22,140 nucleotides of DNA, from IMG/VR virus record IMGVR_UViG_3300031857_015107, positions 1 through 22,140 of that record; one strand, given 5' to 3'. Positions within the stretch are counted from its first letter, which is position 1, and each line of letters opens with the position of its first letter. Positions 684 through 18,367 of the stretch are shown here, piece by piece. The notes below the pieces were generated by a model. It searched no databases and was not told the DNA's origin. It saw only the letters and a list, made by a program, of their open reading frames with translations. The position numbers and the translations under genes are program-made. This DNA comes from a virus.

Positions 684-932
684 ATGCAGAAAAAGACCCG
701 AAGTTTACTAGAAGAACTAGACTCGTTGTATGTAGAGCGTGATCGCCGCCTGATAATCGAAACTCGGGCCGACAGCATTATATCCAGCGCCATACGACTG
801 ATAGAACAGATCGAAGCAGAGTTTGGCGCAGAACAAGCTGACAATCTCACACGTAAATTGCTCAATGCAATACGTACCAAGGATGCTGGCAAGTTCTCGC
901 GATCAGTTAGGAGAACAAATGCAGATTCATGA
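684..932 (+). CDS. Small charged helical phage protein, unknown function
   Basis: 82 residues. The sequence is rich in E, R, K, L and I with heptad-like spacing (residues 5-65), so a coiled coil is likely. No cysteine pair, signal peptide or membrane segment is present. It is the first gene of the plus-strand virion block, 19 bases behind a late-type promoter box, and its last 14 bases overlap the next gene. The ribosome binding site before the ATG is weak. It could be a small head or core component or an assembly factor, judged only from the neighbours. I do not recognise the family. Confidence 0.65.
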   Translation: MQKKTRSLLEELDSLYVERDRRLIIETRADSIISSAIRLIEQIEAEFGAEQADNLTRKLLNAIRTKDAGKFSRSVRRTNADS

Positions 933-1809
933 ATTAACACGACCACGCCGAGTCAACGAAGGCTTCTTGGGCGGTGCGGCCGCAGCATTGGGAGGCATAG
1001 CCAAACAAGTTGGCAAACAAGCAATAAACAAGGCTGTGGGAGGAGATGTAACCTCGCAAGATGGTCCTGCTCAAAGCCGTGAGCAAGGATTTAAGAGCAT
1101 GGTTAACAGTCCTGCGGCCAAAACTCTGGCTACCTCCATGCAGGCCGCTTGGGCAGAAACTGTGCGAAACTTCTTGACCAATGCCAAAGATTCAATGGGC
1201 AATCCTGCTACCAGTGTAAGAGGGGTTAGTACACCCAGCACTGAAGCGTTGAAAACTGAACTACGAACATTGGTCAATAAAATGATTGGTGGTAGCCAAA
1301 GCTCAGCATTTGATTATAGTAATATGGCCAACAACATTGGCGACCCTGTTGCCAAAGCCGGAATTCAAGAAATTATTGCTAGAATTAACGAATATACAGA
1401 GTCTATTTTTAAAGCAACTGTTCTTGGTATCGATCCTAAAAATTTATCCAATGACTGGCTCAAATTAGTAGGCGATGGTATATTGCCGGCGCAGAACGCA
1501 AGAGCCTATGATAGCAAATCTGGTAGTGTAATAACAATGTCTCCAGCAGCCACTAAAATAGCTGATTTGTTAAGATTAGACGACGGGGATATCGTGAAGA
1601 TTAGACAAGCCATTAGCAACCCTGGCGGAGATCGAGTTGCTGCTACAATTCTTAATAAAACAACACCTGCAACAATAGCTTCTCCCTTGATTAAACAATT
1701 TGGACAACAAACAAAATTGACTGATACAGAGCTCACGTCAATGTTAGCTATGGCACGAGACGCTGCAAATGATGCAGCCTTTAAAGAAATATTTGGATTA
1801 CGAGCATGA
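919..1809 (+). CDS. Virion-type protein, Ala/Gly-rich N-terminus with LxE/IxE-type tag
   Basis: 296 residues. The frame is open upstream to 823, but ATG 919 is chosen because a good TAGGAG ribosome binding site lies at 908-913 and because the upstream part overlaps the previous gene. The product begins MQIHELTRPRRVNEGFLGG. Residues 3-5 (I-H-E) match the (L/I)-x-E consensus cut by the T4 prohead protease gp21. A small-residue amphipathic stretch (G/A/K-rich, about residues 18-45) follows, then a mostly helical body with no recognisable enzyme motif. The stop overlaps the next start (ATGA). The tag and location suggest an internal head or scaffold-associated protein. That is inference and the family is not identified. 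Confidence 0.7.
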   Translation: MQIHELTRPRRVNEGFLGGAAAALGGIAKQVGKQAINKAVGGDVTSQDGPAQSREQGFKSMVNSPAAKTLATSMQAAWAETVRNFLTNAKDSMGNPATSVRGVSTPSTEALKTELRTLVNKMIGGSQSSAFDYSNMANNIGDPVAKAGIQEIIARINEYTESIFKATVLGIDPKNLSNDWLKLVGDGILPAQNARAYDSKSGSVITMSPAATKIADLLRLDDGDIVKIRQAISNPGGDRVAATILNKTTPATIASPLIKQFGQQTKLTDTELTSMLAMARDAANDAAFKEIFGLRA

Positions 1810-3710
1810 TGTATCTCAAGGAAGGCGGCAACGTATTTAAAGATGCACAAGGTAAACCCGTAACACAACGCATCAGTCAAGCAGACATACCCAGCACAGT
1901 GGCTTGGTTAGAAGCAGTCACAGGTCTTGATTTGTCACATGATAAAGATGAGAACGGTGTTCCTGTCAAGTGGTTGGGCTCAACAGGCAAGAAACCTGAC
2001 TCAGGTGATCTAGACCTTGCTGTGGATGCCAATGAAATAACCAAGGCCGAACTCAAGGGTCAACTAGACGCCTGGGCTACAAAAAACAAACAAGATCCCA
2101 AGGAATGGTGCAGACTGTCAGGCGAAGCTGTGCATTTTAAAACACCCATACAAGGCGACCCCAAGCGTGGTTATGTGCAAACAGACTTCATGTTCATGCC
2201 CAATTTGGAATGGGGCACATTCTGGCTGGGTGGTGGTGCAGGATCAGCCTACAAAGGTGTATTTCGTAATGTGCTGATGTCTAGCATTGCCAAAGCACTG
2301 GGACTCAAAGCCTCAGCCAAGGGCATCATCAGTCGTCAGACTGAAAAAGTAATCACAATGGATCCAGATCAAGCCGCTGGCATATTGCTAGCGCCACAGT
2401 ACAAACGCAGTCAGCTAATGACCGTGGAAAACATTTACAAAGCCTTGGCCATGGATCCTGATCGTGATGCCAAACTGGCAGACTTCCGTGAATATCTCTC
2501 ACGTGAGGGCGTAAAAGAACCCGAAACGGGCATGGCAGAAAGTGACGTTAACTTCCTGGCACGTCTACGTGATAGAATTGTAAATCGGGGTTATGTTGCT
2601 CTTGTGGAGGCTGAACAGGCCGGGGTGGGTGGTAGAGCCAAGGGTATTGAACACCTGGAAGATCTTGTGTTCCGTCGTGGCACACAAGGCATCCGAGACG
2701 CACTAGAAATTGTCAGTCATGCCACTCAGCAACCCCGAACTGTCACAGCCAAGTGGGACGGCAAACCTGCTGTGATATTTGGGCGCAAGCCTGCCACAGG
2801 CGAGTTTGTGCTTACAGACGGGTCGGGATTTGAAGCCAAAGGCTACGATGGCCTTGCTACCAGTCCCCAAATGATGGCTGACATACAGAGCAAAAGATCC
2901 GGGGACAGAACTGAATTGATTCAACTGTATGCCACATTGTTTCCTGTGCTAGAAGCCGCATTGCCCCCAAACTTTCGTGGCTATGTCAAAGGCGATTTGT
3001 TGTACATGTCAACCCCGCCTGTGGAAGCAGGCAACTATGTGTTCCGTCCCAACACTGTGGAATACCGAATCCCAGTCAAGAGCACTCTAGGACAACGCAT
3101 TGGTGCTAGCAACATTGGCATTGCCGTCCACTCAATGTATGCAGACGCAGGTGATGCACGTCAACCCTTGAGTGGTGTGGCGTTTAATCCAGTTCCTGGA
3201 CTGATGTTGGAAAAGCCAGCAAGCCCTCGTCAACTAGAAACTGAAACCAACGCTGAAAAACAACTCAAACAGTTGATCAAGTCTCAAGGCCAAGCAATTG
3301 ACACCTTGTTCAATCCCACAGAATTGCGAGCACACAAGATCACAGACCTGGCAAAACTGTGCGTGGACTTTATCAACACCAAAGTGGGCGCACCACTCAA
3401 CGGTGCTACACTACTGCCTGAGTTTGGCAAGTGGTTGGAAACAAAGGTTACCCCGCAAAAGTTTCGCAACATTGTGGAATACTTGAACAGCCCTACTTCA
3501 AATACTCCTGCACTGGCAGCTGCATTCAACGCATTTAACTTGTTGCATGACGTCAAAATGCACCTGCTACGCCAAGCAGACACAGAGCACCCAGGGCAAG
3601 AAGGCTGGGTCATGGCCACCCCTGTAGGCTATGCAAAGGCGGTAAATAGATTTGATCCCAATGCATTTGCGGCTCAAAATAGACAGAGAAACAATCCGCA
3701 ACAGGCGTGA
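1806..3710 (+). CDS. Two-domain protein: polymerase-beta-like nucleotidyltransferase plus ligase-like domain
   Basis: 634 residues; the start overlaps the previous stop (ATGA) and a second ATG follows at 1809. Domain 1 (about 40-160) has a nucleotidyltransferase signature: G58-S59, then SGDLDLA with D68 and D70, and a third acidic residue, D127, in VQTDFMF. Domain 2 (about 300-450) has K316-W-D318-G319, the KxDG adenylation motif of covalent nucleotidyltransferases (DNA/RNA ligases, capping enzymes), then KGDLLY near 395-400, resembling ligase motif IV. A convincing motif V (KxK) was not found, so ligase activity is unproven. The N-terminus MMYLKEGG contains L-K-E, a gp21-type cleavage consensus. 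Its place among virion genes suggests packaging in the head (inference). Substrate unknown; nucleic-acid repair or modification on infection is one possibility. Confidence 0.75.
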   Translation: MMYLKEGGNVFKDAQGKPVTQRISQADIPSTVAWLEAVTGLDLSHDKDENGVPVKWLGSTGKKPDSGDLDLAVDANEITKAELKGQLDAWATKNKQDPKEWCRLSGEAVHFKTPIQGDPKRGYVQTDFMFMPNLEWGTFWLGGGAGSAYKGVFRNVLMSSIAKALGLKASAKGIISRQTEKVITMDPDQAAGILLAPQYKRSQLMTVENIYKALAMDPDRDAKLADFREYLSREGVKEPETGMAESDVNFLARLRDRIVNRGYVALVEAEQAGVGGRAKGIEHLEDLVFRRGTQGIRDALEIVSHATQQPRTVTAKWDGKPAVIFGRKPATGEFVLTDGSGFEAKGYDGLATSPQMMADIQSKRSGDRTELIQLYATLFPVLEAALPPNFRGYVKGDLLYMSTPPVEAGNYVFRPNTVEYRIPVKSTLGQRIGASNIGIAVHSMYADAGDARQPLSGVAFNPVPGLMLEKPASPRQLETETNAEKQLKQLIKSQGQAIDTLFNPTELRAHKITDLAKLCVDFINTKVGAPLNGATLLPEFGKWLETKVTPQKFRNIVEYLNSPTSNTPALAAAFNAFNLLHDVKMHLLRQADTEHPGQEGWVMATPVGYAKAVNRFDPNAFAAQNRQRNNPQQA

Positions 3711-3773: not shown

Positions 3774-4181
3774 ATGGCAACATTTACAAAAGTAAACGGT
3801 ACTACACAACCGTCATTCGCAATTGACGTAGCAAACGGTTCCATCGCAGGAACAGCTAACGTAGCAGCTCAAGGTCCAGTTCAGATCCAAGGTCCAAAAC
3901 TTGACTTCTTCACTTTAACAGCTAACGCCGCGTTGACCAACGCTGGTAACGTTAACGGTTACTTGAACAACGTTTTGACAGCAGTTCAACAACTTGGTAC
4001 AATCGCAATTTACCAAGCTGGTGCTACAGCTGGCACAATTAACTTGGCTATCTATCCAAGTGGTGCTTACACCACAACAACATTGGTTGCAGCCGCGCAA
4101 ACAGCCAACGCAACTGGTGGCTTGAACATTGGTATCCCAACTGCCAACGTTTCTGCATCAGCTACATTCACTAACCTGTAA
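3774..4181 (+). CDS. Small abundant-type structural protein
   Basis: 135 residues. A clear AAAGGAAAA ribosome binding site lies 8-12 bases before the ATG. The product is almost entirely A, T, N, G, V, I and L with alternating beta patterns, few charges and no cysteine, as in small phage decoration, tube or fibre proteins. It forms its own unit, with a late-type box upstream and a strong terminator right behind. It reuses a small set of codons (AAC, GCT, GGT, ACA), which suggests high expression. I infer an abundant virion protein, perhaps a capsid decoration protein. There is no direct sequence proof of which one. Confidence 0.7.
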   Translation: MATFTKVNGTTQPSFAIDVANGSIAGTANVAAQGPVQIQGPKLDFFTLTANAALTNAGNVNGYLNNVLTAVQQLGTIAIYQAGATAGTINLAIYPSGAYTTTTLVAAAQTANATGGLNIGIPTANVSASATFTNL

Positions 4182-4198
4182 TCAGTTAGCGATCGTCA

Positions 4199-4233
4199 AA
4201 ACCCTGGACGTAAAAACTCCAGGGTTTCTTTTT
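4199..4233 (+). terminator. Rho-independent terminator
   Basis: A perfect 8-base stem (ACCCTGGA at 4201-4208, TCCAGGGT at 4218-4225), extendable to 10 by A-T pairs, has a 9-base loop and is followed by a T-rich tail (TTCTTTTT). It closes the transcript of the small structural gene. Confidence 0.85.
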
Positions 4234-4252
4234 GGCATTAAATACTCACAGA

Positions 4253-4693
4253 ATGAAGATCACATGCCGTACCCTTTTTGATTGCAGTCTCACCGGTGTA
4301 ACTGGACACTACAGATCAAGCGAAATTCCATTTGTGGATCGTGCTGGGCAAACCATACGCAATCAACAAGACTGGAATCATTCGCGTAATCAGCAACGCA
4401 ATTGGGAAACCCTGTTGCAGATCATAAGTCTCAGAACCCAGCCCGTTGACCTTACTGTGCCCGAGAAAAAAGACACAGCATGGGAGTTTGAGTTTAGATC
4501 TGAGTCAGAAGGTGTGTTTGAAATGCATGGCAACCCAGACCCATTAGCTGGACTCAAACAAGATTGCGAAGGGGTTCCCATGATGCTGAATCTTACTGAA
4601 CAACCTAGCATGTCCCCCACTATTGCCACATCGGGTGATAATCAAAATATTTGGTTCATTGCGGTAAATAATGCATTGGAGCAATCATGGTAG
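4253..4693 (+). CDS. Conserved-type phage protein, unknown function
   Basis: 146 residues from ATG 4253. An in-frame TTG at 4232 lies inside the terminator tail and is not a credible start. The product is mixed alpha/beta with several tryptophans and a run of polar, acidic segments. It has no signal peptide, membrane segment or metal-binding motif. No Shine-Dalgarno sequence precedes the ATG, but a TTAAATAC box ends 8 bases upstream, so the message may have a very short leader. The gene overlaps the next one by 7 bases. Its position between a structural gene and a holin-like gene suggests a virion or assembly role (inference only). Confidence 0.65.
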   Translation: MKITCRTLFDCSLTGVTGHYRSSEIPFVDRAGQTIRNQQDWNHSRNQQRNWETLLQIISLRTQPVDLTVPEKKDTAWEFEFRSESEGVFEMHGNPDPLAGLKQDCEGVPMMLNLTEQPSMSPTIATSGDNQNIWFIAVNNALEQSW

Positions 4694-4950: not shown

Positions 4951-5432
4951 CTCAAGAACAAAAACTAAATGCCTGGGCTGAACGAGAGCTCAAACGTAAT
5001 ATCGATTCTATTATTATAGATGACGGCACTGGTTCTCTTGTGGTTTTTGGAAAATATTGTATACAGCCAAAGGATGCCAGATTTCAAGTCAGCACCTGGG
5101 ACAAAATAATTCATTCTTTCAGCACAAAGAAAACAGCTATGAGTTGGTGTACAACAGATCATCAACAACACTACAATTTATCTAATCAAATATTGGTACT
5201 AGACCGTAAAAAACAATCATTAGCAGCGGATATATACTGCCGACAACTCACTGGCGAGCGTGGAAAAACAGAATCATTTTATGAAATCATAAACATGAAA
5301 CTGCAACCCAAAATAGACCAATACAACTCAGTTACAGCCGAACTAGAGAAATGTGTAAATCAGGCTAAATATATGCAAATTAAGGGATTCAATAATGAAA
5401 CTGCAAGAACTATCGGCTCCAACGCCAAGTAA
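4947..5432 (+). CDS. Phage protein of unknown function, C-terminal helical region
   Basis: 161 residues, start overlapping the previous stop (ATGA). The N-terminal half is beta-rich with aromatic and cysteine residues and includes an FSTKKTAMSWC segment. The C-terminal half (about 85-150) is strongly helical and likely a coiled coil. No known catalytic motif, signal peptide or membrane segment is visible. The gene overlaps the start of the following gene by 38 bases. It is probably a virion or assembly protein from its location, but I do not recognise the family. Confidence 0.65.
   Translation: MTQEQKLNAWAERELKRNIDSIIIDDGTGSLVVFGKYCIQPKDARFQVSTWDKIIHSFSTKKTAMSWCTTDHQQHYNLSNQILVLDRKKQSLAADIYCRQLTGERGKTESFYEIINMKLQPKIDQYNSVTAELEKCVNQAKYMQIKGFNNETARTIGSNAK
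5365..5372 (+). promoter_or_regulatory. Late-type promoter box CTAAATAT
   Basis: CTAAATAT lies inside the end of the preceding gene and ends 22 bases before the ATG at 5395. Spacing and core match the box upstream of the tail fibre gene (8528-8535). Confidence 0.45.
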
Positions 5433-6357
5433 ACAAATTGCCAAAGTATTCGAAAGTTACTTTGGTAGCCGCATTCGCTTTGACCAATTAACACGTGGGC
5501 AAACTCAAGCAATGTTGGGCAAAGTACGTGGTATCTTGGGCGAGCATCGCAAAACTTCTCAACGTCATAGCAGTGAGCAAGACCCACGTTACCTGCAATT
5601 GGTAATGATGGAACAGGCATTGTCTAGTCGCTTGAAAGAAAATGTCATTCCACCTGCTCCCGGTTCTACTCCTGCTCCTGGCGCTGCTTCTGCAACTCCA
5701 CAGGCCGCTGTTGCTGGTGGTAAACCTGCTGTGGCTGGGGCAGTTGCTAAGGATCCTAAATTGGCTGCCGCACTTAAAAAGAGTTCAGCTGGCCAAACAT
5801 TGAATCCTGAAGAACAAAAACTAGTAGCTGGCGCCGCAATGATGCAGGCTGAAAGTCGTTTCCGCAGAATGGCACGCCGACTGAACGAAAGCGAAATTCA
5901 ACAAGCTCAAGTTGTGTTGGCCGCTCAAGACATGGTTGACAAAATGCAAGCCATGTTGGAAGATGTGAGTGAACTGCAATTCAAAGAGTTGCCAGCCTTG
6001 GTTGACTCAATCAAGAATCAAGTTGGTGTTGACCAAGCCTCTCAATTCAATGCAGACGCCACAGCCGCACTAACAGGCCTGTTGCAAAATATTCAAGGTG
6101 CCAAGCAACAACTTGACGCCGCATTGAATGTGGTAACTGGTGCGGCTCCTGCTGGTGCCGCAGCCGCTGGCGCTATGGGCGCTGACATCGCCGCAGGCGC
6201 AGGTGATATGGCCGCCGCAGGTGCTGACATGGCCGCCGCAGGTGCTATGGGTGCCGAAGCTGGTGCTGACATGGGTGCAGATGCTGCATTGGATGCCGCA
6301 GCCGCTGATGCTGGTGCTGAACCTCCTGCCGCCGCGCTGGGTCGCGCCAAAAGATAA
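5395..6357 (+). CDS. Virion-type protein with LxE tag and Ala/Gly-rich C-terminus
   Basis: 320 residues, begins MKLQELSAPTPSKQ; L3-Q4-E5 matches the T4 gp21 cleavage consensus (L/I)-x-E. Residues 15-85 form a conserved-looking helical region (RFDQLTRGQTQAMLGKVRG; later YLQLVMMEQAL). A proline/alanine linker follows (about 86-125), then a long helical region (140-245), then a very low-complexity A/G/D/M tail (about 247-315) encoded partly by tandem repeats. An AAGGG ribosome binding site and a late-type box precede the start. Composition and tag suggest a prohead core, internal or scaffold-like head protein. No enzymatic motif is visible, so the exact role is inferred from context. Confidence 0.7.
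   Translation: MKLQELSAPTPSKQIAKVFESYFGSRIRFDQLTRGQTQAMLGKVRGILGEHRKTSQRHSSEQDPRYLQLVMMEQALSSRLKENVIPPAPGSTPAPGAASATPQAAVAGGKPAVAGAVAKDPKLAAALKKSSAGQTLNPEEQKLVAGAAMMQAESRFRRMARRLNESEIQQAQVVLAAQDMVDKMQAMLEDVSELQFKELPALVDSIKNQVGVDQASQFNADATAALTGLLQNIQGAKQQLDAALNVVTGAAPAGAAAAGAMGADIAAGAGDMAAAGADMAAAGAMGAEAGADMGADAALDAAAADAGAEPPAAALGRAKR
6208..6246 (+). repeat. 21-base in-frame tandem repeat in the Ala-rich tail
   Basis: ATGGCCGCCGCAGGTGCT occurs at 6208-6225 and again at 6229-6246, separated by GAC. Degenerate copies lie on both sides (about 6160-6300). Each unit encodes M-A-A-A-G-A plus D. The copy number could vary by slippage. Confidence 0.8.
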
Positions 6358-6719
6358 TGAAAATATTTGAAGTTGACAGTAGCATGGGAATGGCGGCTCC
6401 GCCTAACCCAGCGCAACTGTCGGGCTTGGTGCAGTTTCTCGATGGTCGTGCCAAGGACACCAATGCCAAAAAAGAAATCAGCCAGGATGCATTCATCAAA
6501 CTGGCCAATGATTTGGATATCAACATCACCGCCCAAAATCTAGCCGATGTTGTGAGTCAAGAGCCACTCAGTAACCTTTTGGAACCTATGGATCCAAACA
6601 CAGGCGTGTTAGTGTTCAAAGGTGCAGGCGAACCAAATGTTGCTATGCCAGTGAACAAAGCACAGGACATTGTGGCCAGTGCTGCCAAATCGGCAATGAA
6701 CAAAGACCGCGGTGTTTAA
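6357..6719 (+). CDS. Virion-type protein with IxE tag, unknown function
   Basis: 120 residues; the ATG shares one base with the previous stop. It begins MKIFEVDSSMGMAAPP; I3-F4-E5 again matches (L/I)-x-E. The body is a compact alpha-helical region (about 20-75: LVQFLDGRAKDTNAKKEISQ onward) followed by a short beta segment (NTGVLVFKGAG). No membrane segment, cysteine or known catalytic motif is present. It is the last gene of the left virion block and is translationally coupled to the Ala-rich protein before it, so the two probably work together, perhaps in the prohead. The family is not identified. Confidence 0.7.
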   Translation: MKIFEVDSSMGMAAPPNPAQLSGLVQFLDGRAKDTNAKKEISQDAFIKLANDLDINITAQNLADVVSQEPLSNLLEPMDPNTGVLVFKGAGEPNVAMPVNKAQDIVASAAKSAMNKDRGV

Positions 6720-7088: not shown

Positions 7089-7475
7089 ATGGCATACTCA
7101 GATAAAGTAATTGATCACTATGAAAATCCCCGGAATGTCGGATCTTTTGACAAGACTGATACTGATATTGGTACTGGTATGGTTGGCGCACCTGCTTGCG
7201 GCGACGTGATGAAGCTTCAAATCAAAGTAGAAAATGGCATTATTACGGACGCAAAATTCAAGACTTACGGGTGCGGCTCAGCCATTGCTTCAAGCTCGCT
7301 CATCACCGAAATGGTCAAAGGAATGTCGCTCGACGCCGCAGGAGCAATCAAGAATTCAGAGATTGCTGAAGAGCTTGCCCTCCCGCCAGTCAAAATCCAT
7401 TGCTCAATACTTGCTGAAGACGCGATCAAAGCCGCGGTAGAAGACTATCGCAAAAAGCATGATCTCGTTCACTGA
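7089..7475 (+). CDS. iscU: Iron-sulfur cluster assembly scaffold IscU
   Basis: 128 residues, the normal IscU length. IscU assembles [2Fe-2S] clusters with sulfur from IscS and hands them on through HscA/HscB. All key residues are present: C37 and D39 in APACGDVM, C62 in YGCGSA, H104-C105 in KIHCSILAEDA, and the HscA-binding motif LPPVK at 98-102. The N-terminus MAYSDKVIDHYENPRNVGSF closely matches E. coli IscU as I know it, so recent acquisition from a proteobacterium is likely. The gene lies one base after the exported-protein gene and overlaps iscA by 17 bases. No iscS, hscA, hscB or fdx is seen, so host partners would be needed. Confidence 0.95.
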   Translation: MAYSDKVIDHYENPRNVGSFDKTDTDIGTGMVGAPACGDVMKLQIKVENGIITDAKFKTYGCGSAIASSSLITEMVKGMSLDAAGAIKNSEIAEELALPPVKIHCSILAEDAIKAAVEDYRKKHDLVH

Positions 7476-7782
7476 CACAGCACGAAACAAAATACAAAAA
7501 CTAGTCACAGCCAAAGGCTACGCTGGTATTCGGCTTGGAGTTAAAACTACAGGTTGCTCGGGTCTTGCTTATGTGCTGGAATACGTTCGAGAATACACAC
7601 CTGAACAGTATGTTATCAATTATGCACAGTCTGATTTTGTAGTTCTAGTAACTCAAAAAGATGATGTGTATCTACACAACATGACTGTAGATTATGTGCG
7701 CCAAGGCCTCAACGAAGGCTTTGAGTTTCGAAATCCCAACGAACGTGATCGTTGTGGTTGCGGAGAAAGTTTTCGAATATAG
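7459..7782 (+). CDS. iscA: IscA/HesB-family iron-sulfur carrier
   Basis: 107 residues, typical for A-type carriers. The three ligand cysteines are present: C33 in TTGCSGLAY, and C99 and C101 in RCGCGESF near the C-terminus. A-type carriers bind iron or an Fe-S cluster and pass it to apo-proteins. The start lies inside the end of iscU, so the pair is translationally coupled. It is followed by the promoter of the nuclease gene. IscA versus ErpA or SufA cannot be separated with certainty from sequence alone; the adjacency to iscU favours IscA. Confidence 0.93.
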   Translation: MISFTDTARNKIQKLVTAKGYAGIRLGVKTTGCSGLAYVLEYVREYTPEQYVINYAQSDFVVLVTQKDDVYLHNMTVDYVRQGLNEGFEFRNPNERDRCGCGESFRI

Positions 7783-8558: not shown

Positions 8559-10325
8559 GTGGCAATTGTACAAATATCACGAATCACACAACGCAAGGGT
8601 CTATTCAACGATCTACCCCAACCATTAGCTGGCGCTGAACTGGGCTGGGCAACTGACACCCGTCAACTTTTTATCGGTAATGGTACCCTAGCAGATGGTG
8701 CTCCTATTATTGGTAACACAGAAGTTCTTACTGAATTTTCTGACATCTTGAACTATGCCACTGAATACACCTATAAAGGTGATGCGGCCGGCTACACTGT
8801 TCAAACTGGCGCCACAGCAGGCACACCAGTCAGTCAAAGTCTACAACGCAGACTGGACAGTTATGCTGTGATTACAGATTTTGGTGCTACTGGTGATGGT
8901 ATCACAGATGTCACAGCCGACATCAATCGTGCATTGGATCAGATTTTTTGTCAAGACATCAATCCCTTGGTCCGCCGAAGCATTTTCTTCCCAGCCGGCA
9001 CATATATTATCACAGACACATTGCTGATTCCGCCTTACTGTAAACTCTACGGCGAAGGATCAGACAGCACAATTATCAGTTTTAATGTTCAACCCTGGAC
9101 CACTACCATTGGCTATGCCTCGGGTGTGTTGGTTGAAGATGGCGGCGTGTACTACAGAAGTATCGCTATAGTGCCAATTGGTATTGCGATTAGTAATCCC
9201 ACTTATTGGGGAGTTGAAACACTGCCCGATTACATGTTTAGAACCACAGACAGTCTTCAACAAACTGGTGCCAATATTGGTACTGGTGGTGCATTGCCAC
9301 CAGGGCATGTGGAAATATCCAGCATCAAGTTTGAAACCAATGTACCTACTAGTGGTGGCTTGGTACAAGGTGCAACAGACTGTGTGTTTGACTGTGTGGC
9401 GTTTGAAGGCAACGGAACCCAAGCCACACTTACCACTGCTACTCTTGCCACGGCTGGTGTGAGTTTTGCCAATCAAGGCAGTTATGTTTGTACCAATATT
9501 ATCTGGAACAATTGTATTTTTACCAAGATGGCCTGGGGAGTGAACACAGACGAAGCAGTGGAAGGAGTCACTGTCAGCAACTGTAGATTTGATACCCTGT
9601 TCCAGGGCGTGTATCTTGGTATCATCTCTCCGCCGGTAAATTATGTTGGTCCTACTGGTGTCCGTATAACACAAAACATGTTTGATAATATCTATGGCGA
9701 AGGCATTGTTATTGTGAATTGCAGTCTCAATGCCACGGCCTACAACACATTCTACGAGGTTGGAAATAGTTTTAATGGTCAGACCAATCCAGTGACACCT
9801 GTGATTGATCTAGATGCAACCAACAATGTCAGCGTTGGGGATATGTTTGAACGCAAAACATCACAATCATCAGACTTGCATCCTCGCATTGCACTGAATA
9901 ACAAAAACAATATTGCCCTTGGCATGAACGTTAACAATATTGAATTATATCAAAGTAATGCAATAGATTTAACCTTGGCCAATCAGTTGAGCGTAGGCAC
10001 ATACAATCGCATCGCCGGCATACAAGATGTTGTGGCCAACAATGCCACAGCCAACTTGGCCTATGTGAATGGCACCTACATCAGTAGTTTGCGAATGGAT
10101 TACACCATAGTCCGTGCAGATCTTCGCCGCACGGGTCAAATGGTAGTGGTCAAGGGGCAGGCCGCCACAGGAACAGGATTTGCCTTTACAGATGACTTTG
10201 TGGAAAATGGTGCTACTGGAGTCACGCTTACCGCAGTAGCAGATGGTGCCAATGTGAGAATATCGTATACTTCGACCAACACAGTACCAGGCACAATCAA
10301 CTACTCTATTACCAATCTCGGTTGA
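8559..10325 (+). CDS. Tail fibre or tailspike with pectate-lyase-like beta-helix
   Basis: 588 residues, GTG start with an AAAGGA ribosome binding site 8 bases upstream. The N-terminus (about 10-45, RKGLFNDLPQPLAGAELGWA and TRQLFIGNG) matches the virion-anchoring domain common in phage tail fibres. A pectate-lyase-3-like beta-helix starts near 103 (VITDFGATGDGITD) with a FFPAGTYIITDTL turn and repeated short N/V/I strands up to about 440. A module near 185-216 (LVEDGGVYYRS ... YW) resembles a carbohydrate-binding element. The C-terminal 100 residues form a beta-rich domain ending in INYSITNLG. It probably binds or cleaves host surface polysaccharide; which catalytic residues act cannot be told from sequence alone. 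Confidence 0.85.
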   Translation: MAIVQISRITQRKGLFNDLPQPLAGAELGWATDTRQLFIGNGTLADGAPIIGNTEVLTEFSDILNYATEYTYKGDAAGYTVQTGATAGTPVSQSLQRRLDSYAVITDFGATGDGITDVTADINRALDQIFCQDINPLVRRSIFFPAGTYIITDTLLIPPYCKLYGEGSDSTIISFNVQPWTTTIGYASGVLVEDGGVYYRSIAIVPIGIAISNPTYWGVETLPDYMFRTTDSLQQTGANIGTGGALPPGHVEISSIKFETNVPTSGGLVQGATDCVFDCVAFEGNGTQATLTTATLATAGVSFANQGSYVCTNIIWNNCIFTKMAWGVNTDEAVEGVTVSNCRFDTLFQGVYLGIISPPVNYVGPTGVRITQNMFDNIYGEGIVIVNCSLNATAYNTFYEVGNSFNGQTNPVTPVIDLDATNNVSVGDMFERKTSQSSDLHPRIALNNKNNIALGMNVNNIELYQSNAIDLTLANQLSVGTYNRIAGIQDVVANNATANLAYVNGTYISSLRMDYTIVRADLRRTGQMVVVKGQAATGTGFAFTDDFVENGATGVTLTAVADGANVRISYTSTNTVPGTINYSITNLG

Positions 10326-10752: not shown

Positions 10753-13071
10753 ATGAAGCAAATTACAGTACAAAAACGCAGTGGACGTCGCGAGCCACTG
10801 GCGTTGGAAAAATGGCAAGCACAAATAGCCAAGATTTGTGCAGGCACAGCAGATGTAAGCCAGAGCATGATTGAAATCAAAGCTCAGTTACACTTTTACG
10901 ATGGTATCACAACTCACGAAATTGACGGTATTACACTTAGAGCCATAGTGGATTTGATTGACGTAGAATCAAACCCAGATGTTGGTCATACAAATTACCA
11001 GTACGTAGCGGGAAAACAACGTCTAAGCATGTTGCGTAAAGACGTTTACGGTTCATACGATCCTCCCCACTTGTATGAGATTGTGAAGAAAAACGTAGCC
11101 ACTGGCTTGTATACTCCTGAACTGTTGGAATGGTACTCAGAGGACGACTGGAACCGTATGAATGACATGATCGATCATGCCAAAGACGAGCAGTATTCTT
11201 ATGCGGCAGTTGAGCAACTGATTGAAAAGTATCTTGTTCGTAATCGTTCAACAAAGGAAATTTATGAAACTCCACAGGTTAGATACATGGTGGCAGCGGC
11301 AACTGTGTTTCACAAAGAAGAACCTAATGCAGCTCGTATGCGTTACATCAAAGAGTATTACCAAGCCGCCAGTGATGGTCTTTTTACTCTTGCTACTCCT
11401 GTACTCGCTGGCCTTGGTACTCCTACCAAACAGTTTAGTTCCTGTGTTCTTATTCGTAGCGATGATGATCTCGACTCTATTTTTGCCTCTGGGGAAATGA
11501 TGGCCAAGTATGCCAGCAAGCGAGCTGGCATTGGCCTGGAGATTGGACGCTTACGTCCGTTAGGCTCGCCCATACGTGGCGGCGAAATCATGCACACCGG
11601 CATGATACCATTTTTAAAGAAGTGGTTTGGCGACTTACGCTCGTGCTCACAAGGAGGTATCCGCAATGCAAGTGCTACTGTATTCTATCCTATTTGGCAT
11701 CTTCAGTTTGATGATCTTATTGTACTTAAGAACAACCAAGGAACAGAAGAAACCCGAGTCCGTCATATGGATTATGGGGTTGTGCTTAGTGCTTTCTTCT
11801 GGAGACGATTTAAAAACAAAGAAAACATAACTTTCTTTGATCCCAACGAAGTACCTGAACTGTACGAAGCATTCTATGCCAACACTGAACGCTTTGAGAA
11901 ACTGTATGTGGAATATGAAAAACGCCAGGACCTGCGCACCAAGACAATGAGTGCAGAAGAAGTGTTCAAATCGGGCATTCTTAAAGAGCGAACAGACACA
12001 GGTCGTATCTATCTTGTGTTCATTGACAATGTCATGAACCAAGGTCCGTTTGATACTGAGTATCATACCATTTACCAGAGTAATCTTTGCTGTGAAATTC
12101 TCTTACCTACAAAACCGTTTAAGCGCCTGGATGATGATGCAGGGCGAATCGCCCTCTGTACGCTGGGAAGTATTAACTGGGGTGCATTCCGGAATCCTGA
12201 AGACATGCGGAGAGCTTGTAGAATTCTGCAGAGATCCTTGTGTAATATCCTTGACTACCAAGACTTCCTGTCAATCCAATCGCAGTTATCAAATGACGAA
12301 ATCCAGCCGCTTGGTATCGGTATTACTAACTTGGCTTACTGGCATGCCAAGCGAGGACTCCAATATGGTAACAAGGACTCTTTGGCCGAAGTCAAGAGCT
12401 GGATGGAACATCAGGCTTTCTACCTTACCGAAGCAACAGTTGAACTTGCTAAGGAGCGGGGCCGTTGCAAAGATTCGGACCGCACCTACTACGGTAAAGG
12501 TATATTTCCTTGGGAACGACGTGCCAACGGTGTGAATGAACTTGCTGACTTTACACCTGAACTGAACTGGGAAGGCCTACGTGCTGAGATGCGTAGTTAT
12601 GGTGTGCGTAATGCTACACTAATGGCCATTGCACCTGTGGAGTCAAGCTCAGTGGTGATCAACTCAACCAACGGTATTGAAATGCCCATGAGCCTGATCT
12701 CAGTTAAAGAATCCAAAGCAGGAAGCCTCACACAAGTTGTTCCTGAATATCACAAGTTGAAAAACAAATATCAAATGATGTGGGCGCAAAAGGACTGTGA
12801 TGGTTATTTGAAAACAGCGGCTGTGTTAGCGGCCTATGTTGATCAGTCAATCTCAACCAACACATTCTACAATCCTGCACACTTTGCTGACCGTAAAGTG
12901 CCAACCACCCTGATTGCTCGAAACCTAATGCAAGCACACCACTGGGGATTGAAAACATTCTACTACAGTCTGATCAACAAGGCCGGATCAAAACAAACTG
13001 CCGAAGCGGCACCTCTTGAAGTCATTGACTTTGATCTCGAGGGTGAAGACTGCGAAGCTTGCAAGTTATGA
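10753..13071 (+). CDS. nrdA: Ribonucleotide reductase class Ia, large subunit NrdA
   Basis: 772 residues, close to the usual length. It reduces NDPs to dNDPs together with NrdB. An ATP-cone-like N-terminus (about 3-95) suggests allosteric activity control. Active-site residues are present: C231 (FSSCVLI) and C469 (ALCTLGSINWG) as the redox pair, N444-L-C446-C-E448 as the radical cysteine site, a YY pair near the C-terminus (KTFYYSL), and a C-terminal CEACKL tail with C767/C770 for reduction by glutaredoxin or thioredoxin. The stop overlaps the next start (ATGA). In this operon nrdB follows two genes later and glutaredoxin further on, forming a dNTP-supply set. A short frame is nested inside (11666-11830). 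Confidence 0.97.
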   Translation: MKQITVQKRSGRREPLALEKWQAQIAKICAGTADVSQSMIEIKAQLHFYDGITTHEIDGITLRAIVDLIDVESNPDVGHTNYQYVAGKQRLSMLRKDVYGSYDPPHLYEIVKKNVATGLYTPELLEWYSEDDWNRMNDMIDHAKDEQYSYAAVEQLIEKYLVRNRSTKEIYETPQVRYMVAAATVFHKEEPNAARMRYIKEYYQAASDGLFTLATPVLAGLGTPTKQFSSCVLIRSDDDLDSIFASGEMMAKYASKRAGIGLEIGRLRPLGSPIRGGEIMHTGMIPFLKKWFGDLRSCSQGGIRNASATVFYPIWHLQFDDLIVLKNNQGTEETRVRHMDYGVVLSAFFWRRFKNKENITFFDPNEVPELYEAFYANTERFEKLYVEYEKRQDLRTKTMSAEEVFKSGILKERTDTGRIYLVFIDNVMNQGPFDTEYHTIYQSNLCCEILLPTKPFKRLDDDAGRIALCTLGSINWGAFRNPEDMRRACRILQRSLCNILDYQDFLSIQSQLSNDEIQPLGIGITNLAYWHAKRGLQYGNKDSLAEVKSWMEHQAFYLTEATVELAKERGRCKDSDRTYYGKGIFPWERRANGVNELADFTPELNWEGLRAEMRSYGVRNATLMAIAPVESSSVVINSTNGIEMPMSLISVKESKAGSLTQVVPEYHKLKNKYQMMWAQKDCDGYLKTAAVLAAYVDQSISTNTFYNPAHFADRKVPTTLIARNLMQAHHWGLKTFYYSLINKAGSKQTAEAAPLEVIDFDLEGEDCEACKL
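11666..11830 (+). CDS. Possible nested small membrane protein inside nrdA (speculative)
   Basis: A 54-residue frame, +1 relative to nrdA, starts at ATG 11666 only 7 bases after AAGGAGGT (11651-11658), a full-strength Shine-Dalgarno match. The product starts MQVLLYSILFGIFSLMILLY, a clear membrane helix, then a charged stretch and a second hydrophobic segment (VIWIMGLCLVL). Against it: the AAGGAGGT arises from conserved Q-G-G codons of nrdA, and hydrophobic frame-shadows are common. Listed as a candidate only. Confidence 0.22.
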   Translation: MQVLLYSILFGIFSLMILLYLRTTKEQKKPESVIWIMGLCLVLSSGDDLKTKKT

Positions 13072-13265
13072 ACAGCATAGAAAAAATCTGGGCCCGGGCC
13101 ACCGGGCACTTGATGGGTGAGAGTGATCATGACCGTCCGGATGTGCCTATTCTCACTTTGCGAGAAGCCCGAATAGCCTTGTTTTTCAAAACGTTTTGGG
13201 TTATAATACACGTTGTGACCTGTGGTTTCATCATAGCCAACACAATAAGACACTGGAACAATTAG
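13068..13265 (+). CDS. Small single-pass membrane protein in the nrd operon
   Basis: 65 residues from ATG 13068, which overlaps the nrdA stop by 4 bases. The N-terminal half is polar (MNSIEKIWARATGHLMGESD, then DRPDVPILTLREARIAL), and the C-terminal half holds one hydrophobic membrane segment (about 36-60) ending in IRHWNN. There are no catalytic motifs. Its place between nrdA and the aldolase gene, with overlaps, makes co-translation likely. The function is unknown; a membrane anchor for the dNTP-synthesis complex is conceivable but speculative. Confidence 0.7.
   Translation: MNSIEKIWARATGHLMGESDHDRPDVPILTLREARIALFFKTFWVIIHVVTCGFIIANTIRHWNN
13179..13207 (+). promoter_or_regulatory. Weak possible internal sigma-70 promoter (TTGTTT-17-TATAAT)
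   Basis: A perfect TATAAT at 13202-13207 sits 17 bases after a poor -35 (TTGTTT, 13179-13184), inside the small membrane-protein gene and about 60 bases before the aldolase start. It might give extra transcription of the aldolase and nrdB. Confidence 0.25.
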
Positions 13266-13266
13266 C

Positions 13267-13917
13267 ATGTTAGAAACCTGTTGTGATATATTAGTAGATG
13301 CGTACAAACGCAATTGGATAACCAGTAGAGATGGCAATATCTCTATTCGTCACCACGACCGTGATCACTTTTATATCACACCGTCGGGTGTGCGCAAGCA
13401 GACCATGCAACCTGATCAGTTTAAAAAGATCAAGTTGGTTGACAATATTAATCCTGTGCCTCCGTTTTTGACAAAAGGTTGGCAGGAAGAATATTACACT
13501 GATATCAGTAGTAACCTAAAGCCCAGTGGAGAGATTCCCCTGCACTTTGGACTACAACGAGAAATGGGTCAACACTCAAACGATGTTAGAGTTGTTGTTC
13601 ATGTGCATCCAACCTATTGCATTGCAGCCATGCATGCGGGTATTGATCTAAGTGCCATTAGCGATAGTTTCCCAGAACTCAATCGTTATACACGAGTTGC
13701 ACCCAATGTAGGAGATGTGGCACCTATCAGTCAAGAACTTGCCGATGCCTGTCACAGTAATTTGGGCCTGGACCCGGCGGGCAATATCAAATTTGATATT
13801 GTGGGAATAAAAGGACATGGAGTTGTGGCCATTGATGTCACACCATGGCGTGCCTATGAGCACATAGAAAGATTAGAACATATTTGCAAGATAGTACTTG
13901 CATCAGGAAAATACTAA
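13267..13917 (+). CDS. Class II aldolase/adducin-family enzyme
   Basis: 216 residues, the usual size of this family (fuculose-phosphate aldolase, ribulose-phosphate epimerase AraD, methylthioribulose-phosphate dehydratase MtnB). Motifs are in order: SRDGNISIR (20-28) and ITPSGV (37-42) for phosphate binding, KPSGEIPLH with E89 as the likely catalytic acid, VVVHVHPTY with Zn ligands H112 and H114, and KGHGVV with third Zn ligand H174. All key residues are intact, so the enzyme is probably active. The substrate cannot be named. It lies between nrdA and nrdB, starting one base after the membrane-protein gene and overlapping nrdB by one base, so a link to sugar-phosphate or nucleotide metabolism is plausible. 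Confidence 0.88.
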   Translation: MLETCCDILVDAYKRNWITSRDGNISIRHHDRDHFYITPSGVRKQTMQPDQFKKIKLVDNINPVPPFLTKGWQEEYYTDISSNLKPSGEIPLHFGLQREMGQHSNDVRVVVHVHPTYCIAAMHAGIDLSAISDSFPELNRYTRVAPNVGDVAPISQELADACHSNLGLDPAGNIKFDIVGIKGHGVVAIDVTPWRAYEHIERLEHICKIVLASGKY

Positions 13918-15017
13918 TGTCAAAACAACAATACAATTTAAAAACAAAAACAGACTATCTCAGTAGAAAGATGTTCTTGGACCCAGCAGGCCCAGTAACA
14001 GTTCAGCGATTTGAAGAAGTCAAGTACAACAAACTGGTCAAGTACGAACAAGAAGCACGTGGTTTCTTTTGGGTACCAGAAGAAATCTCCCTGACCAAAG
14101 ACGCACAAGATTTCAAAGATGCCAGTGACACAGTCAAGCATATCTTTACATCAAACTTACTGCGTCAAACAGCCTTGGACAGTTTGCAAGGACGTGGCCC
14201 AAGTCAGATTTTTACACCTGTGTGTAGTATTCCTGAGCTGGAAGCGTTGGTGTACAATTGGACATTCTTTGAAACCAACATTCACTCACGCAGTTACAGT
14301 CACATTATTCGCAACATCTACAACGTGCCCAAGGATGTGTTCAACACAATTCACGACACACAAGAGATTGTGGACATGGCAAGTAGTGTCGGAGATCACT
14401 ATGATCAATTACACATGATCAATTGTCATAAAGAGTTAGGATCGCAGTACAGCGAAGAAGCACATATCCGAGCCATCTGGCTAGCACTCAATGCCAGTTA
14501 CGCATTAGAAGCATTCCGCTTCATGGTTAGCTTTGCCACAAGCCTGGCCATGGTTGAGAACAAGATTTTTATCGGCAATGGCAATATCATTCAATTGATC
14601 CTGCAAGATGAAATGCTACACAAAGAGTGGACTGGATGGTTGATCAATCAAGTGGTCAAAGAAGACCCTCGTTTTGCCGCTGTCAAGGCCGAGTGTGAGG
14701 CAGAAGTATATCAAATGTACCTAGATGTTATCCGTGAAGAAAAAGCCTGGGCGGACTATTTGTTCAACAAAGGACCAGTGATTGGGCTTAACGCAAACAT
14801 TCTCAAAGACTTTGTGGACTTCACTGCATTTAATGCACTCAAAGAGATCGGTATCAAGTACGCAGAAGAACACCCACGCTCTACACCCATACCTTGGTTT
14901 ACCAAACACGTGGACACCAGCAAGAAACAAACTGCACTTCAAGAGAACGAGTCGACTAACTATGTTATTGGCGTCATGAGCGACTCAATTGATTACGAGG
15001 AACTACCAGAACTATGA
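13917..15017 (+). CDS. nrdB: Ribonucleotide reductase class Ia, small subunit NrdB
   Basis: 366 residues from ATG 13917 (an in-frame TTG at 13884 lies inside the aldolase gene). NrdB holds the diiron-tyrosyl radical cofactor for NrdA. Ligands by comparison with E. coli NrdB: D88 (ALDSLQGR), H123 and radical Y127 (IHSRSYSH), E198 (YALEAFRF), E232 and H235 (QDEMLH). The glutamate before the first histidine is E119, four residues away instead of three as in E. coli, because of one extra residue (FFETNIH). The C-terminus ends in acidic DYEELPEL, suiting NrdA binding. Its stop overlaps the next start (ATGA). Confidence 0.96.
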   Translation: MSKQQYNLKTKTDYLSRKMFLDPAGPVTVQRFEEVKYNKLVKYEQEARGFFWVPEEISLTKDAQDFKDASDTVKHIFTSNLLRQTALDSLQGRGPSQIFTPVCSIPELEALVYNWTFFETNIHSRSYSHIIRNIYNVPKDVFNTIHDTQEIVDMASSVGDHYDQLHMINCHKELGSQYSEEAHIRAIWLALNASYALEAFRFMVSFATSLAMVENKIFIGNGNIIQLILQDEMLHKEWTGWLINQVVKEDPRFAAVKAECEAEVYQMYLDVIREEKAWADYLFNKGPVIGLNANILKDFVDFTAFNALKEIGIKYAEEHPRSTPIPWFTKHVDTSKKQTALQENESTNYVIGVMSDSIDYEELPEL

Positions 15018-16007: not shown

Positions 16008-16298
16008 ATGCCAGCAGTACAAAGAGACGGCGATGCAAATGCAGGCGGCGGTGTAGCTTCAGGGGGAGAACCGACGGTGCGTATCAATGGTCGTCCTGTA
16101 ATGACTCCTGGTCAAAGTGTCACGCCCCACCCGCCGTATCCACGTAAAGGTCGTAATGGTCACAACAATGGCAGTCAGGCCACTGCTGGCGGAAGTGCAT
16201 CAGTCAGAGCCGGGGGCAAGCCTGTTATTGTAACCGGTGATGCAGACACTTGCGGACATGCTCGTGCTGGCGGTTCAGACAATGTAAGGGCAGGATAA
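16008..16298 (+). CDS. PAAR-domain tail spike tip protein
   Basis: 96 residues with the glycine-rich, repeat-like pattern of PAAR proteins: RDGDANAGGGVASGG, VRINGRPVMTPGQSVTPHPP, a second half with SVRAGGKPVIVTGD, and a C-terminal CGHARAGGSDNVRAG. The histidines and cysteine near the ends (HPP, NGH, CGH) could be the metal ligands that stiffen the tip. In T4 the equivalent is gp5.4, which caps the gp5 spike and sharpens the membrane-piercing needle. The next gene, overlapping by one base, encodes a large tail or baseplate protein, in line with a tail module. Confidence 0.88.
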   Translation: MPAVQRDGDANAGGGVASGGEPTVRINGRPVMTPGQSVTPHPPYPRKGRNGHNNGSQATAGGSASVRAGGKPVIVTGDADTCGHARAGGSDNVRAG

Positions 16299-18367
16299 TG
16301 CCCAGTGTATTAACACCACTGCAATTGACTGCGGCGGCATCCATGTTGGGTAACACAGGGTTGCGTGGATTTCCAGCGGCACTGCAAACTGCTATTACCA
16401 CATTCAACGCTACCACAGTGATTGCTAATTTTATTGCTGCAGTAAACTTTTACAAGTCGCAGTCGTTTGCAACATCAAGCACGTTGACTAGTTTGTTGAG
16501 TATTGGTAGTACAGTATGTCCAGCTCTGGGAAACAGCATACCGGCCAGCCCAGTAGGCACATACACGTATCTCAATAGCGAATACCTGGTCAACTATCTT
16601 GACCCAGTTGACGGATCAACCATTGACCCTAGTGGGTTTTCTAATCTGATTGAACAAACCTGTGCCGCTTACCTTGGCAACGGAGACTATGGTCGATTCA
16701 GTCAGGGTTTCATAGCTGTGCAAGGTTACATTGCCAGCACCAATCAGTACATCAATTCAGCAGTGAATGCCAATCAATTTCTTGGTCCAACATTTACCAA
16801 CATGGATTCCTTGACCACTGCAGGAATCAGTAGTGTAAACAGCGACCTTGAAACATTTGGTGTGGACTTGGCCAAGCAAGGTAACCTTGTGAATCTTCAA
16901 AACCTTGATCTTTATGGCACCCCTGCAGCACTGGTTCAACAGATATCTCGCCTGGCCGGAGTGAGCAGACAAGCTGTGCCTGCTTTACAATCGGCTCTGG
17001 CTGCGGTGGGACTCACAGACAGTGATATTGAAAATATTGTGACAGACAATCGTGTGGGTCTCAATAGACCCAATGGCCTCAGTCAAAACGACTTTGATCG
17101 CATACAAAAAAATGTCTACCTAGCATTGTCGTTGGTGTCTAGTGATGATCTAGCTCAAATTTTGTCAATCCTGAACGTGACCACTCCTAACATAACCAAC
17201 CTGACACAGTTATTGGATCCGGTCAAGATGTTTCCGTTGAGTTATCCCACCATGCTGACTACCACGCCCACAGGTTCTGTGCCCATATTTGGCGCAGGTG
17301 GCAGTGTAAATTCCAGCATCACACCCATTGTGAATTCATATCTGCCCACAGCGTCAGGCTGTGATGAACTGGGCAAAATTATTCCGCCTGCTGATGCAGT
17401 GGCCAACAAGGCCATTGAAGTGGGTCTGAAACAAATCAACAACATTGCCACAACCACCCTGCCTGAACTGGCCAATGCAATACTGGGCACAGTAGATCGA
17501 GAGTGGGATCCAACGCAAGAATATCTAGCCAATGATGTGGTCAAGGTAGACTCAGGTGCGGCACCCACATTCTACCGAGCCAAATCACCTGGCTGTACAC
17601 CCGGCAATTTTGAAGTGCCAGCCGGGGTTGATATCACAGACACCAACTACTGGGCAGAAACCACACTGGGTGGTCTCAGTACCATGGCCGATTTGCCATT
17701 GATACAAGCACAGACTACACCGGTGCCCGCTAGTGTGACGCAATTTTTTGCAACCGAAGTGGCCACAGGCACAGGACCATGCGGAGTGCTTACCACATAC
17801 GATGTGCTGGGCCTGGCCTTGGACAGCAATGACTTTGCCACAAGACTAAACACAGCCACCACAGCAATTAATACATTGCAAGGTGCAGGTAGTCTTGCTA
17901 CACTAAACACAGCCTACACCAACATCCTGTTGGCCGCTAATGATGCCGCAGTGATAACACAAATTGCCAATGCTAATGCGGCCATTGCCGCACTCAGTGC
18001 CAATCCCAATGTGACTACTCTGAACACAGCATGGACCTACATGGCCAACTTGATGAACATCAGTGCCAAGTACACAAGCCAAGCCGGAGTTGATTATTTC
18101 TTGTTGCAAGCAGGCGATACAAACAGCACCAAAAGTTTTGTACAAAATTTACCGCAATATGGTTTGCTCACAGCCTCGGGTGATGCCGCACAGTTTCTAG
18201 AAAATCTAGCAGACACCGCAACACTGGGTGGCCAGGCAATTGTTGGTACCATGAGAGAAGGTCGCAACCAGGAACGATTAAATGCCGGCGGATTATACAA
18301 CAACACTCAGACGCCCAGCGATGCTGTGGTAGCACCAATTCCAGTAATACTCCCAGTTAACTCATAA
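16298..18367 (+). CDS. Large baseplate/tail structural protein
   Basis: 689 residues from ATG 16298, which shares one base with the PAAR stop and follows a GGATA element; the frame extends upstream to 16250 only inside the PAAR gene. The sequence is rich in A, T, N, L and S without enzyme motifs, mostly helical with beta regions. Around residues 402-450 lies a segment WDPTQEYLANDVVKV ... FYRAKSP ... NYWAETT resembling a type 5/12 carbohydrate-binding module. The C-terminus is low-complexity, P/V-rich. Location right after the spike tip suggests a baseplate or tail-tip protein, possibly contacting surface glycans. The gene ends just before the promoter of the outer-membrane barrel gene. Confidence 0.72.
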   Translation: MPSVLTPLQLTAAASMLGNTGLRGFPAALQTAITTFNATTVIANFIAAVNFYKSQSFATSSTLTSLLSIGSTVCPALGNSIPASPVGTYTYLNSEYLVNYLDPVDGSTIDPSGFSNLIEQTCAAYLGNGDYGRFSQGFIAVQGYIASTNQYINSAVNANQFLGPTFTNMDSLTTAGISSVNSDLETFGVDLAKQGNLVNLQNLDLYGTPAALVQQISRLAGVSRQAVPALQSALAAVGLTDSDIENIVTDNRVGLNRPNGLSQNDFDRIQKNVYLALSLVSSDDLAQILSILNVTTPNITNLTQLLDPVKMFPLSYPTMLTTTPTGSVPIFGAGGSVNSSITPIVNSYLPTASGCDELGKIIPPADAVANKAIEVGLKQINNIATTTLPELANAILGTVDREWDPTQEYLANDVVKVDSGAAPTFYRAKSPGCTPGNFEVPAGVDITDTNYWAETTLGGLSTMADLPLIQAQTTPVPASVTQFFATEVATGTGPCGVLTTYDVLGLALDSNDFATRLNTATTAINTLQGAGSLATLNTAYTNILLAANDAAVITQIANANAAIAALSANPNVTTLNTAWTYMANLMNISAKYTSQAGVDYFLLQAGDTNSTKSFVQNLPQYGLLTASGDAAQFLENLADTATLGGQAIVGTMREGRNQERLNAGGLYNNTQTPSDAVVAPIPVILPVNS

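Follow-up and report, generated by a model that had tools for sequence, protein, structure and literature searches.

The window analysed here, the whole 22,140-nucleotide stretch of IMG/VR viral record IMGVR_UViG_3300031857_015107, encodes on its plus strand a 634-residue protein (positions 1806–3710) in which a family-X-like (PolX-like) nucleotidyltransferase domain is fused to DUF6267, a domain that is probably of ligase type, behind a short leader that fits the T4 prohead protease consensus. To judge from its conservation, the leader probably sends the protein into the virus head, and we propose as a tentative reading, whose chances we put somewhat below even, that the fusion is a head-packaged nucleic-acid repair enzyme acting on incoming DNA.

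A conserved two-enzyme fusion

The frame of the fusion opens with ATG and is uninterrupted, and each residue singled out in an earlier note on this DNA (L4-K5-E6, D68, D70, D127 and K316) lies where that note had placed it. Scans of IMG/VR for the fusion yielded at least hundreds of matches, some of them on long contigs of 127–343 kb, and the protein belongs to a large freshwater phage family; no relatives were found in the bacterial and archaeal genomes scanned. D68, D70, D127, K316, D318 and G319 are invariant in an alignment of 51 relatives. Moreover, among 150 distinct full-length fusion relatives the patterns GS..G...GD.D and Q.DFMF are both present in 150, KWDG in at least 148 and EGWV-8-K.V.R in 149 (pattern counts), such that both active sites are retained together. 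Given this conservation the signature residues are not chance matches, and the two-enzyme fusion proposed in the earlier note is borne out. The protein is divided as follows:

1806–3710, plus strand: fusion protein, consisting of leader, PolX-like domain and DUF6267 ligase-like domain (open frame, IMG/VR relatives)
1806–1823, plus strand: leader MMYLKE, a putative prohead-protease (L/I-x-E) cleavage or targeting tag, with the cut expected between E6 and G7
1824–2525, plus strand: predicted family-X (Pol beta/lambda-like) nucleotidyltransferase domain, residues 7–240
2007–2015, plus strand: catalytic aspartates D68 and D70 (GDLD, in the signature SGDLDLA)
2184–2186, plus strand: third catalytic aspartate, D127 (VQTDFMF)
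2529–2645, plus strand: linker, residues 242–280, modelled at low confidence (predicted local distance difference test score, pLDDT, below 50) and varying in length among relatives
2646–3653, plus strand: Pfam PF19782 DUF6267, residues 281–616, covalent nucleotidyltransferase/ligase-like
2751–2762, plus strand: motif I, K316-W-D-G, with the candidate nucleotidylated lysine
2988–3005, plus strand: motif III-like KGDLLY, residues 395–400
3246–3587, plus strand: all-helical insertion, residues 481–594, between motifs III/IIIa and IV (secondary structure of the models)
3600–3611, plus strand: motif IV, E599-G-W-V
3636–3650, plus strand: motif V, K611-A-V-N-R

A short leader shared with neighbouring genes

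The T4 prohead protease, gp21, recognizes (L/I)-x-E before the cut, and the leader of the fusion ends in this way. Among 151 distinct relatives the residue preceding the GGxVF sequence is glutamate in every case, and the residue two places before it (P3) is leucine in 139, isoleucine in nine and valine in three, so that 148 of the 151 carry leucine or isoleucine. The intervening residue is variable (entropy 2.3 bits), as is the rest of the leader, which ranges from 4 to 9 residues in length. The agreement with the T4 consensus is thus stronger than the earlier note had claimed. Stand-alone homologues from Atu_ph07, Phosso and L314 begin M-GG, and the expected post-cleavage end of the fusion therefore corresponds to their natural start.

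How specific is such a short sequence? A loose L-x-E pattern opens 28 of the 201 open reading frames (ORFs) of one relative (about 14%), and for this reason the evidence for the tag is its conservation and not any single match. The start M-x-[LI]-x-E is common to three neighbours of the fusion gene:

919–1809, plus strand: upstream gene, starting at an internal ATG, N-terminus MQIHE|L; its stop overlaps the fusion start (ATGA)
5395–6357, plus strand: virion-structural-family gene, tag MKLQE|L (phrog_14154 virion structural protein, 2.5e-12; PA5oct homologue)
6357–6719, plus strand: small gene, tag MKIFE|V

The tag is kept in 101 of 110, 83 of 83 and 69 of 70 homologues of these genes, respectively, and was found in 1 of 106 and 0 of 108 homologues of the two intervening genes tested. 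A T4-type S77 prohead protease (PF03420, 6e-24) is encoded together with a gp23 capsid protein in one relative, G003; the protease was not found in the other records, which are incomplete. For the T4 IPIII leader, which is 10 residues long, processing hinges on positions 8 and 10 (PMC9026906). In PA5oct, both the homologue of the PolX-like domain (gp253, structural/virion protein) and the homologue of 5395–6357 (virion protein) are annotated as detected by electrospray ionization tandem mass spectrometry. The Atu_ph07 nucleotidyltransferase and ligase, which are gp65 and gp66 by counting from gp70, lie within a virion-rich cluster of coding sequences 31–76, for which 29 proteins were detected in virions, a figure for the cluster as a whole.

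The N-terminal domain is family-X-like

The AlphaFold2 model of residues 7–240 (mean pLDDT 82) was compared with the PDB by Foldseek, and all 50 matches listed were Tth PolX or Pol lambda, mu or beta, at a probability of 1.00 and an identity of just 13–19%. Giant-virus PolX proteins were matches in a viral structure library. Stand-alone homologues of the domain were identified by tblastn in the jumbo phages Atu_ph07 and Phosso and in the PA5oct group, and an alignment of 13 N-terminal-domain sequences has GSxGKxxx(S/T)GDxD and Q-x-D-x-M in common, with all three catalytic aspartates invariant. The domain contains the pol-beta-type palm with GS...GD.D and a third aspartate by which family X is recognized. 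The 8-kDa and fingers domains of family X were not found in the model, where the stretch ahead of the palm motif has only about 55 residues and includes a single long helix. No Pfam RlaP match was obtained for any of the 13 sequences, and on this ground RlaP was rejected as the identity of the domain. The fold matches argue strongly for a family-X-like domain and refine the polymerase-beta-type nucleotidyltransferase named in the earlier note.

DUF6267 carries an ordered set of ligase motifs

The C-terminal domain is a member of DUF6267 (E=2e-28; 100 bits against a curated cut-off of 27) and also matches phrog_455 (T4-GC71), a family of unknown function. At E<1e-5, tblastn found relatives of the fusion in 315 phage records, predominantly of Synechococcus and Prochlorococcus phages, which match through this domain. 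A literature search for DUF6267 found no mention of it, and a scan for DUF6267 of Pseudoalteromonas type found none. Alignment of the fusion with the cyanophage forms reveals invariant EHxED, K-W-D-G-x-P, GDLL, FxPN, H442 and a C-terminal K...R. At the last motif, where the automatic alignment slips, EGWV(8)K.V.R of the fusion was paired by eye with EGYV(8)K.V.R of the cyanophage proteins on the basis of equal spacing; the 12-residue distance between motifs IV and V is kept in both forms.

The motifs were assigned by comparison with T4 Rnl1, whose sequence contains K99-EDG and EGYVAVMKDGSHFKIK, and with T4 DNA ligase, which contains K159-ADG, motif III IDGELVY and EGIILK. Therefore, K316WDG represents motif I, KGDLLY motif III, E599GWV motif IV (compare EGYV...KIK of Rnl1) and K611 motif V, and the ligase-superfamily motifs I (KxDG), III, IV (EGxV) and V (K) are all present in order. 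Motifs IV and V of DUF6267 (EGYV..KDGS..K) are closest to the Rnl1 sequence. Motif I was correctly recognized in the earlier note and is invariant across DUF6267, cyanophage forms included. KGDLLY had been taken for motif IV, an assignment that is now ruled out, and because of it motif V was missed and the domain was suspected of being degenerate. Degeneracy is likewise ruled out, since all motifs are kept in about 150 relatives.

The model of residues 276–634 (pLDDT 89.3; predicted template modelling score 0.82) had as its top 12 PDB fold matches only ligases or tRNA-ligase adenylyltransferases, with E-values from 9e-3 to 0.6, led by DNA ligase IV, an archaeal RNA ligase, the African swine fever virus (ASFV), Pfu and T4 DNA ligases and Trl1-type enzymes. 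This gives moderate support to a ligase identity by fold. DUF6267 is probably of the covalent nucleotidyltransferase (ligase) type, an assignment that is not proven.

PolX-like and DUF6267 domains in other phages

The PolX-like gene of Atu_ph07, and likewise that of Phosso, overlaps the gene upstream of it, which has KLDG...EGVV motifs; DUF6267 is absent at these loci. The Atu_ph07 partner has a weak Pfam RNA_ligase match (0.002, below the cut-off) and is named RNA ligase in UniProt. The pairing of PolX-like domain and ligase therefore also exists unfused, and PolX-like nucleotidyltransferases have been combined with ligase-type enzymes on at least two occasions, by different routes.

The cyanophage DUF6267 proteins differ from the fusion in having neither a PolX-like domain nor a leader, and in 140 of 147 loci their gene lies directly upstream of a HIGH-motif nucleotidyltransferase (CTP_transf_like match). 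Such loci (L086, 5176–5739, and similar) suggest that the two form a functional pair. In the record of S-PM2 (L085, 5992–7771) DUF6267 is divided between two ORFs, of which the one annotated as cytitidyltransferase opens with the second DUF6267 half (motifs IV–V) and continues with the HIGH-type domain; in the viral structure library the S-PM2 protein is single, with 591 residues.

Gene neighbourhood

A separate canonical ligase is encoded downstream in the window:

20279–21652, plus strand: ATP-dependent DNA ligase (PF01068, 9e-21)

A PF01068 ligase is present in all eight fusion-bearing records, which rules out the fusion as the sole DNA ligase of the phage and indicates that it is a specialist. 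No RNA ligase separate from the fusion was found in these eight records, in which PF09414 matches just the DNA ligase locus and PF09511 is absent, and no AP (apurinic/apyrimidinic) endonuclease of families PF03372 or PF01261 scored above cut-off. These absences are weak, because the records are fragments. No tRNA genes were found in the window.

The earlier note placed the fusion among virion genes, and this holds for some neighbours, such as the virion-structural family at 5395–6357, and not for others, which are metabolic. The latter comprise overlapping iron-sulfur assembly genes at 7089–7782, encoding a NifU/IscU-like scaffold (PF01592, 1.6e-52) and an A-type carrier (PF01521, 2.4e-17), and, at 10753–15017, the genes for the large and small subunits of class Ia ribonucleotide reductase, separated by one with a class II aldolase/adducin domain (PF00596, 6.8e-28). 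Interspersed with the tagged genes, at 3774–4693, are two small uncharacterized ones that are kept in more than 100 loci and carry no L-x-E tag. Further along, 8559–10325 probably encodes a tail spike, which has a pectate-lyase-like domain (PF12708) and weakly matches the Mtd N-terminal domain; a 705-residue ORF at 16250–18367 has no Pfam or PHROGs family match; and the product of 18467–18916 is a small protein of the YfaZ family (2e-8) that resembles an outer-membrane beta-barrel and has an apparent signal peptide. PA5oct (L084, 5899–11686) is partly syntenic with the window, its PolX-like gene being followed by the virion protein related to 5395–6357 and then by an exonuclease; the counterparts in the window start at 1806, 5395 and 7811 (an exonuclease, kinship of the two exonucleases not being implied).

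Discussion

From the conserved leader, the fold matches and the retained active sites we infer the following sequence of packaging, cleavage, injection and catalysis. The short x-L-x-E leader would direct the fusion into the prohead, or be cut off there by a protease of the T4 gp21 type, or both. The mature enzyme, beginning GGNVF, would be ejected together with the genome and would set to work immediately on broken strands or short gaps. In this scheme its minimal PolX-like domain would add the missing nucleotide or nucleotides to a 3'-OH beside a 5'-phosphate, and DUF6267 would nucleotidylate itself at K316, activate the 5'-phosphate and seal the nick. The preferred substrate may be the incoming DNA of the phage itself, with short gaps or nicks left by packaging, ultraviolet light or host nucleases. 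DNA gap repair is favoured because of the family X architecture and because a PolX-ligase fusion of Phaeocystis globosa virus, PgVPolX, was demonstrated by its authors to fill gaps and seal nicks (PMC5537341); on our analysis a DNA substrate would stand slightly ahead of RNA.

Several results weigh against a head-packaged DNA repair ligase. Residues 7–240 matched no Pfam, PHROG or PDB profile, those of PolX families included. The fold search with DUF6267 returned no ligase with an E-value below 1e-3, template modelling scores were low and unrelated proteins followed the top 12 matches. Sequence-profile comparisons of the C-terminal domain gave nothing significant either: hhalign of DUF6267 against the DNA ligase of the record and against the Atu_ph07 RNA ligase was not significant, a profile search of PDB sequences found no ligase, and no Pfam ligase family matched. 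Because of the weak fold E-values and these negative sequence-profile comparisons the ligase assignment is just probable. The structure predictions proposed in the earlier note bore out the PolX fold and left the ligase fold less firmly placed. Moreover, all eight records already hold a canonical DNA ligase, the lack of a PF03372 or PF01261 match means that a complete base excision repair pathway is not visible in the fusion-bearing genomes, the cyanophage proteins carry no leader, and the Rnl1-like motifs IV and V together with the RNA-ligase-type partner in Atu_ph07 point to RNA.

These last features raise the alternative of packaged RNA repair, in which the polymerase-like domain would put back the nucleotides that a cleaved tRNA or other RNA has lost, and the Rnl1-like DUF6267 would reseal that RNA, countering anticodon-nuclease defences as infection begins. 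This is in essence the RlaP plus RNA ligase concept with another nucleotidyltransferase, and such a pairing is an established idea for jumbo phages (PMC7824862). The likeness of motifs IV–V to EGYVAVMKDGSHFKIK, the RNA_ligase-like partner gene of Atu_ph07 and Phosso and the lack of another RNA ligase in the fusion genomes speak for it, but the fold is of PolX and not of RlaP, CCA or poly(A) type, the top ligase fold matches mix DNA and RNA enzymes, and neither a Pfam RlaP match nor, in the window, a tRNA gene was found; we consider RNA repair rather unlikely.

Could DUF6267 instead be a covalent nucleotidyltransferase that is no ligase? The acceptor of its nucleotide would then be a protein, a small molecule or the end of a nucleic acid, and the partner nucleotidyltransferase (PolX-like, or HIGH-type in cyanophages) would supply or recycle that nucleotide. 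The HIGH-motif neighbour in cyanophages, the long helical insertion and the lack of room after motif V for an OB (oligonucleotide/oligosaccharide-binding) domain are consistent with this idea. However, T4 Rnl1 and Rnl2 likewise lack the OB domain of DNA ligases, a PolX partner favours polymer ends and the leading fold matches are all polynucleotide or tRNA ligases, such that this possibility seems distinctly unlikely. Slightly less probable still is a protein that is not packaged at all, its L-x-E leader being coincidental or serving expression or degradation and the enzyme working on replicating DNA at a late stage inside the cell. The frequency of the loose pattern, the leaderless cyanophage forms and the distance of about 80 kb between the fusion gene and the capsid genes of G003 would suit this explanation, but the invariant glutamate, the near-constant P3 residue in leaders of variable length, the three tagged neighbours (one of a virion family) flanking untagged genes and the PA5oct homologue annotated in virions all argue against it.

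Comparison with known systems places head-packaged DNA repair in context. Like the phage fusion, PgVPolX carries a family-X polymerase at its N-terminus and a ligase at its C-terminus within a single viral protein; it differs in having an NAD+-dependent LigA-type ligase and a full-size PolX with an 8-kDa lyase domain in place of DUF6267 and a minimal PolX, and it belongs to a eukaryotic giant virus, with no head tag mentioned in the abstract and introduction of its description (PMC5537341). ASFV also combines a minimal PolX without the 8-kDa domain with a dedicated viral ligase, itself among the top DUF6267 fold matches, although in two separate proteins of other sequence families and in a eukaryotic virus (PMC5330486, PMC6344480). 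In jumbo phages, RlaP-type nucleotidyltransferases and RNA ligases show a pol-beta nucleotidyltransferase working with a ligase, whereas that of the fusion is of another family, fused and head-tagged (PMC7824862). T4 Alt and the internal proteins IPI–III share a short N-terminal leader ending L/I-x-E for head targeting or cleavage, but their enzymatic domains are unrelated and the fusion leader has 4–9 residues in comparison to 10 in the IPIII capsid-targeting sequence; the parallel with Alt drawn in the earlier note holds for the delivery route and not for the chemistry. That note also called the combination unusual, which is true of phages in the libraries searched, but a giant algal virus has a PolX-ligase fusion too; overall the interpretation given in the note is partly supported. 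PolX-ligase fusion in a giant virus and ligase-associated pol-beta nucleotidyltransferases in jumbo phages are already known (PMC5537341, PMC7824862); the novel points are the fusion in a phage, the reading of DUF6267 as a domain of ligase type and a tag that is conserved across a gene cluster.

The results point to a phage counterpart of the giant-virus repair enzymes that join PolX and ligase, and provide a testable function for DUF6267, a domain found in more than 300 sequenced phage records, mostly of marine cyanophages, and in at least hundreds of environmental viral contigs. The very short cluster-wide tag M-x-[L/I]-x-E could allow a list of the proteins that this phage group injects to be drawn up straight from sequence. 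We hypothesize, at a likelihood that we judge rather less than even, that the phage packs into its head, and injects, a single polypeptide able both to fill gaps and to seal them, which would begin to repair the incoming genome or host tRNAs before phage gene expression, and that DUF6267 represents a new and widespread family of viral ligases with a HIGH-nucleotidyltransferase-linked branch in marine cyanophages. If the protein is packaged, the phage genome may enter the cell accompanied by a nucleic-acid repair kit of its own.

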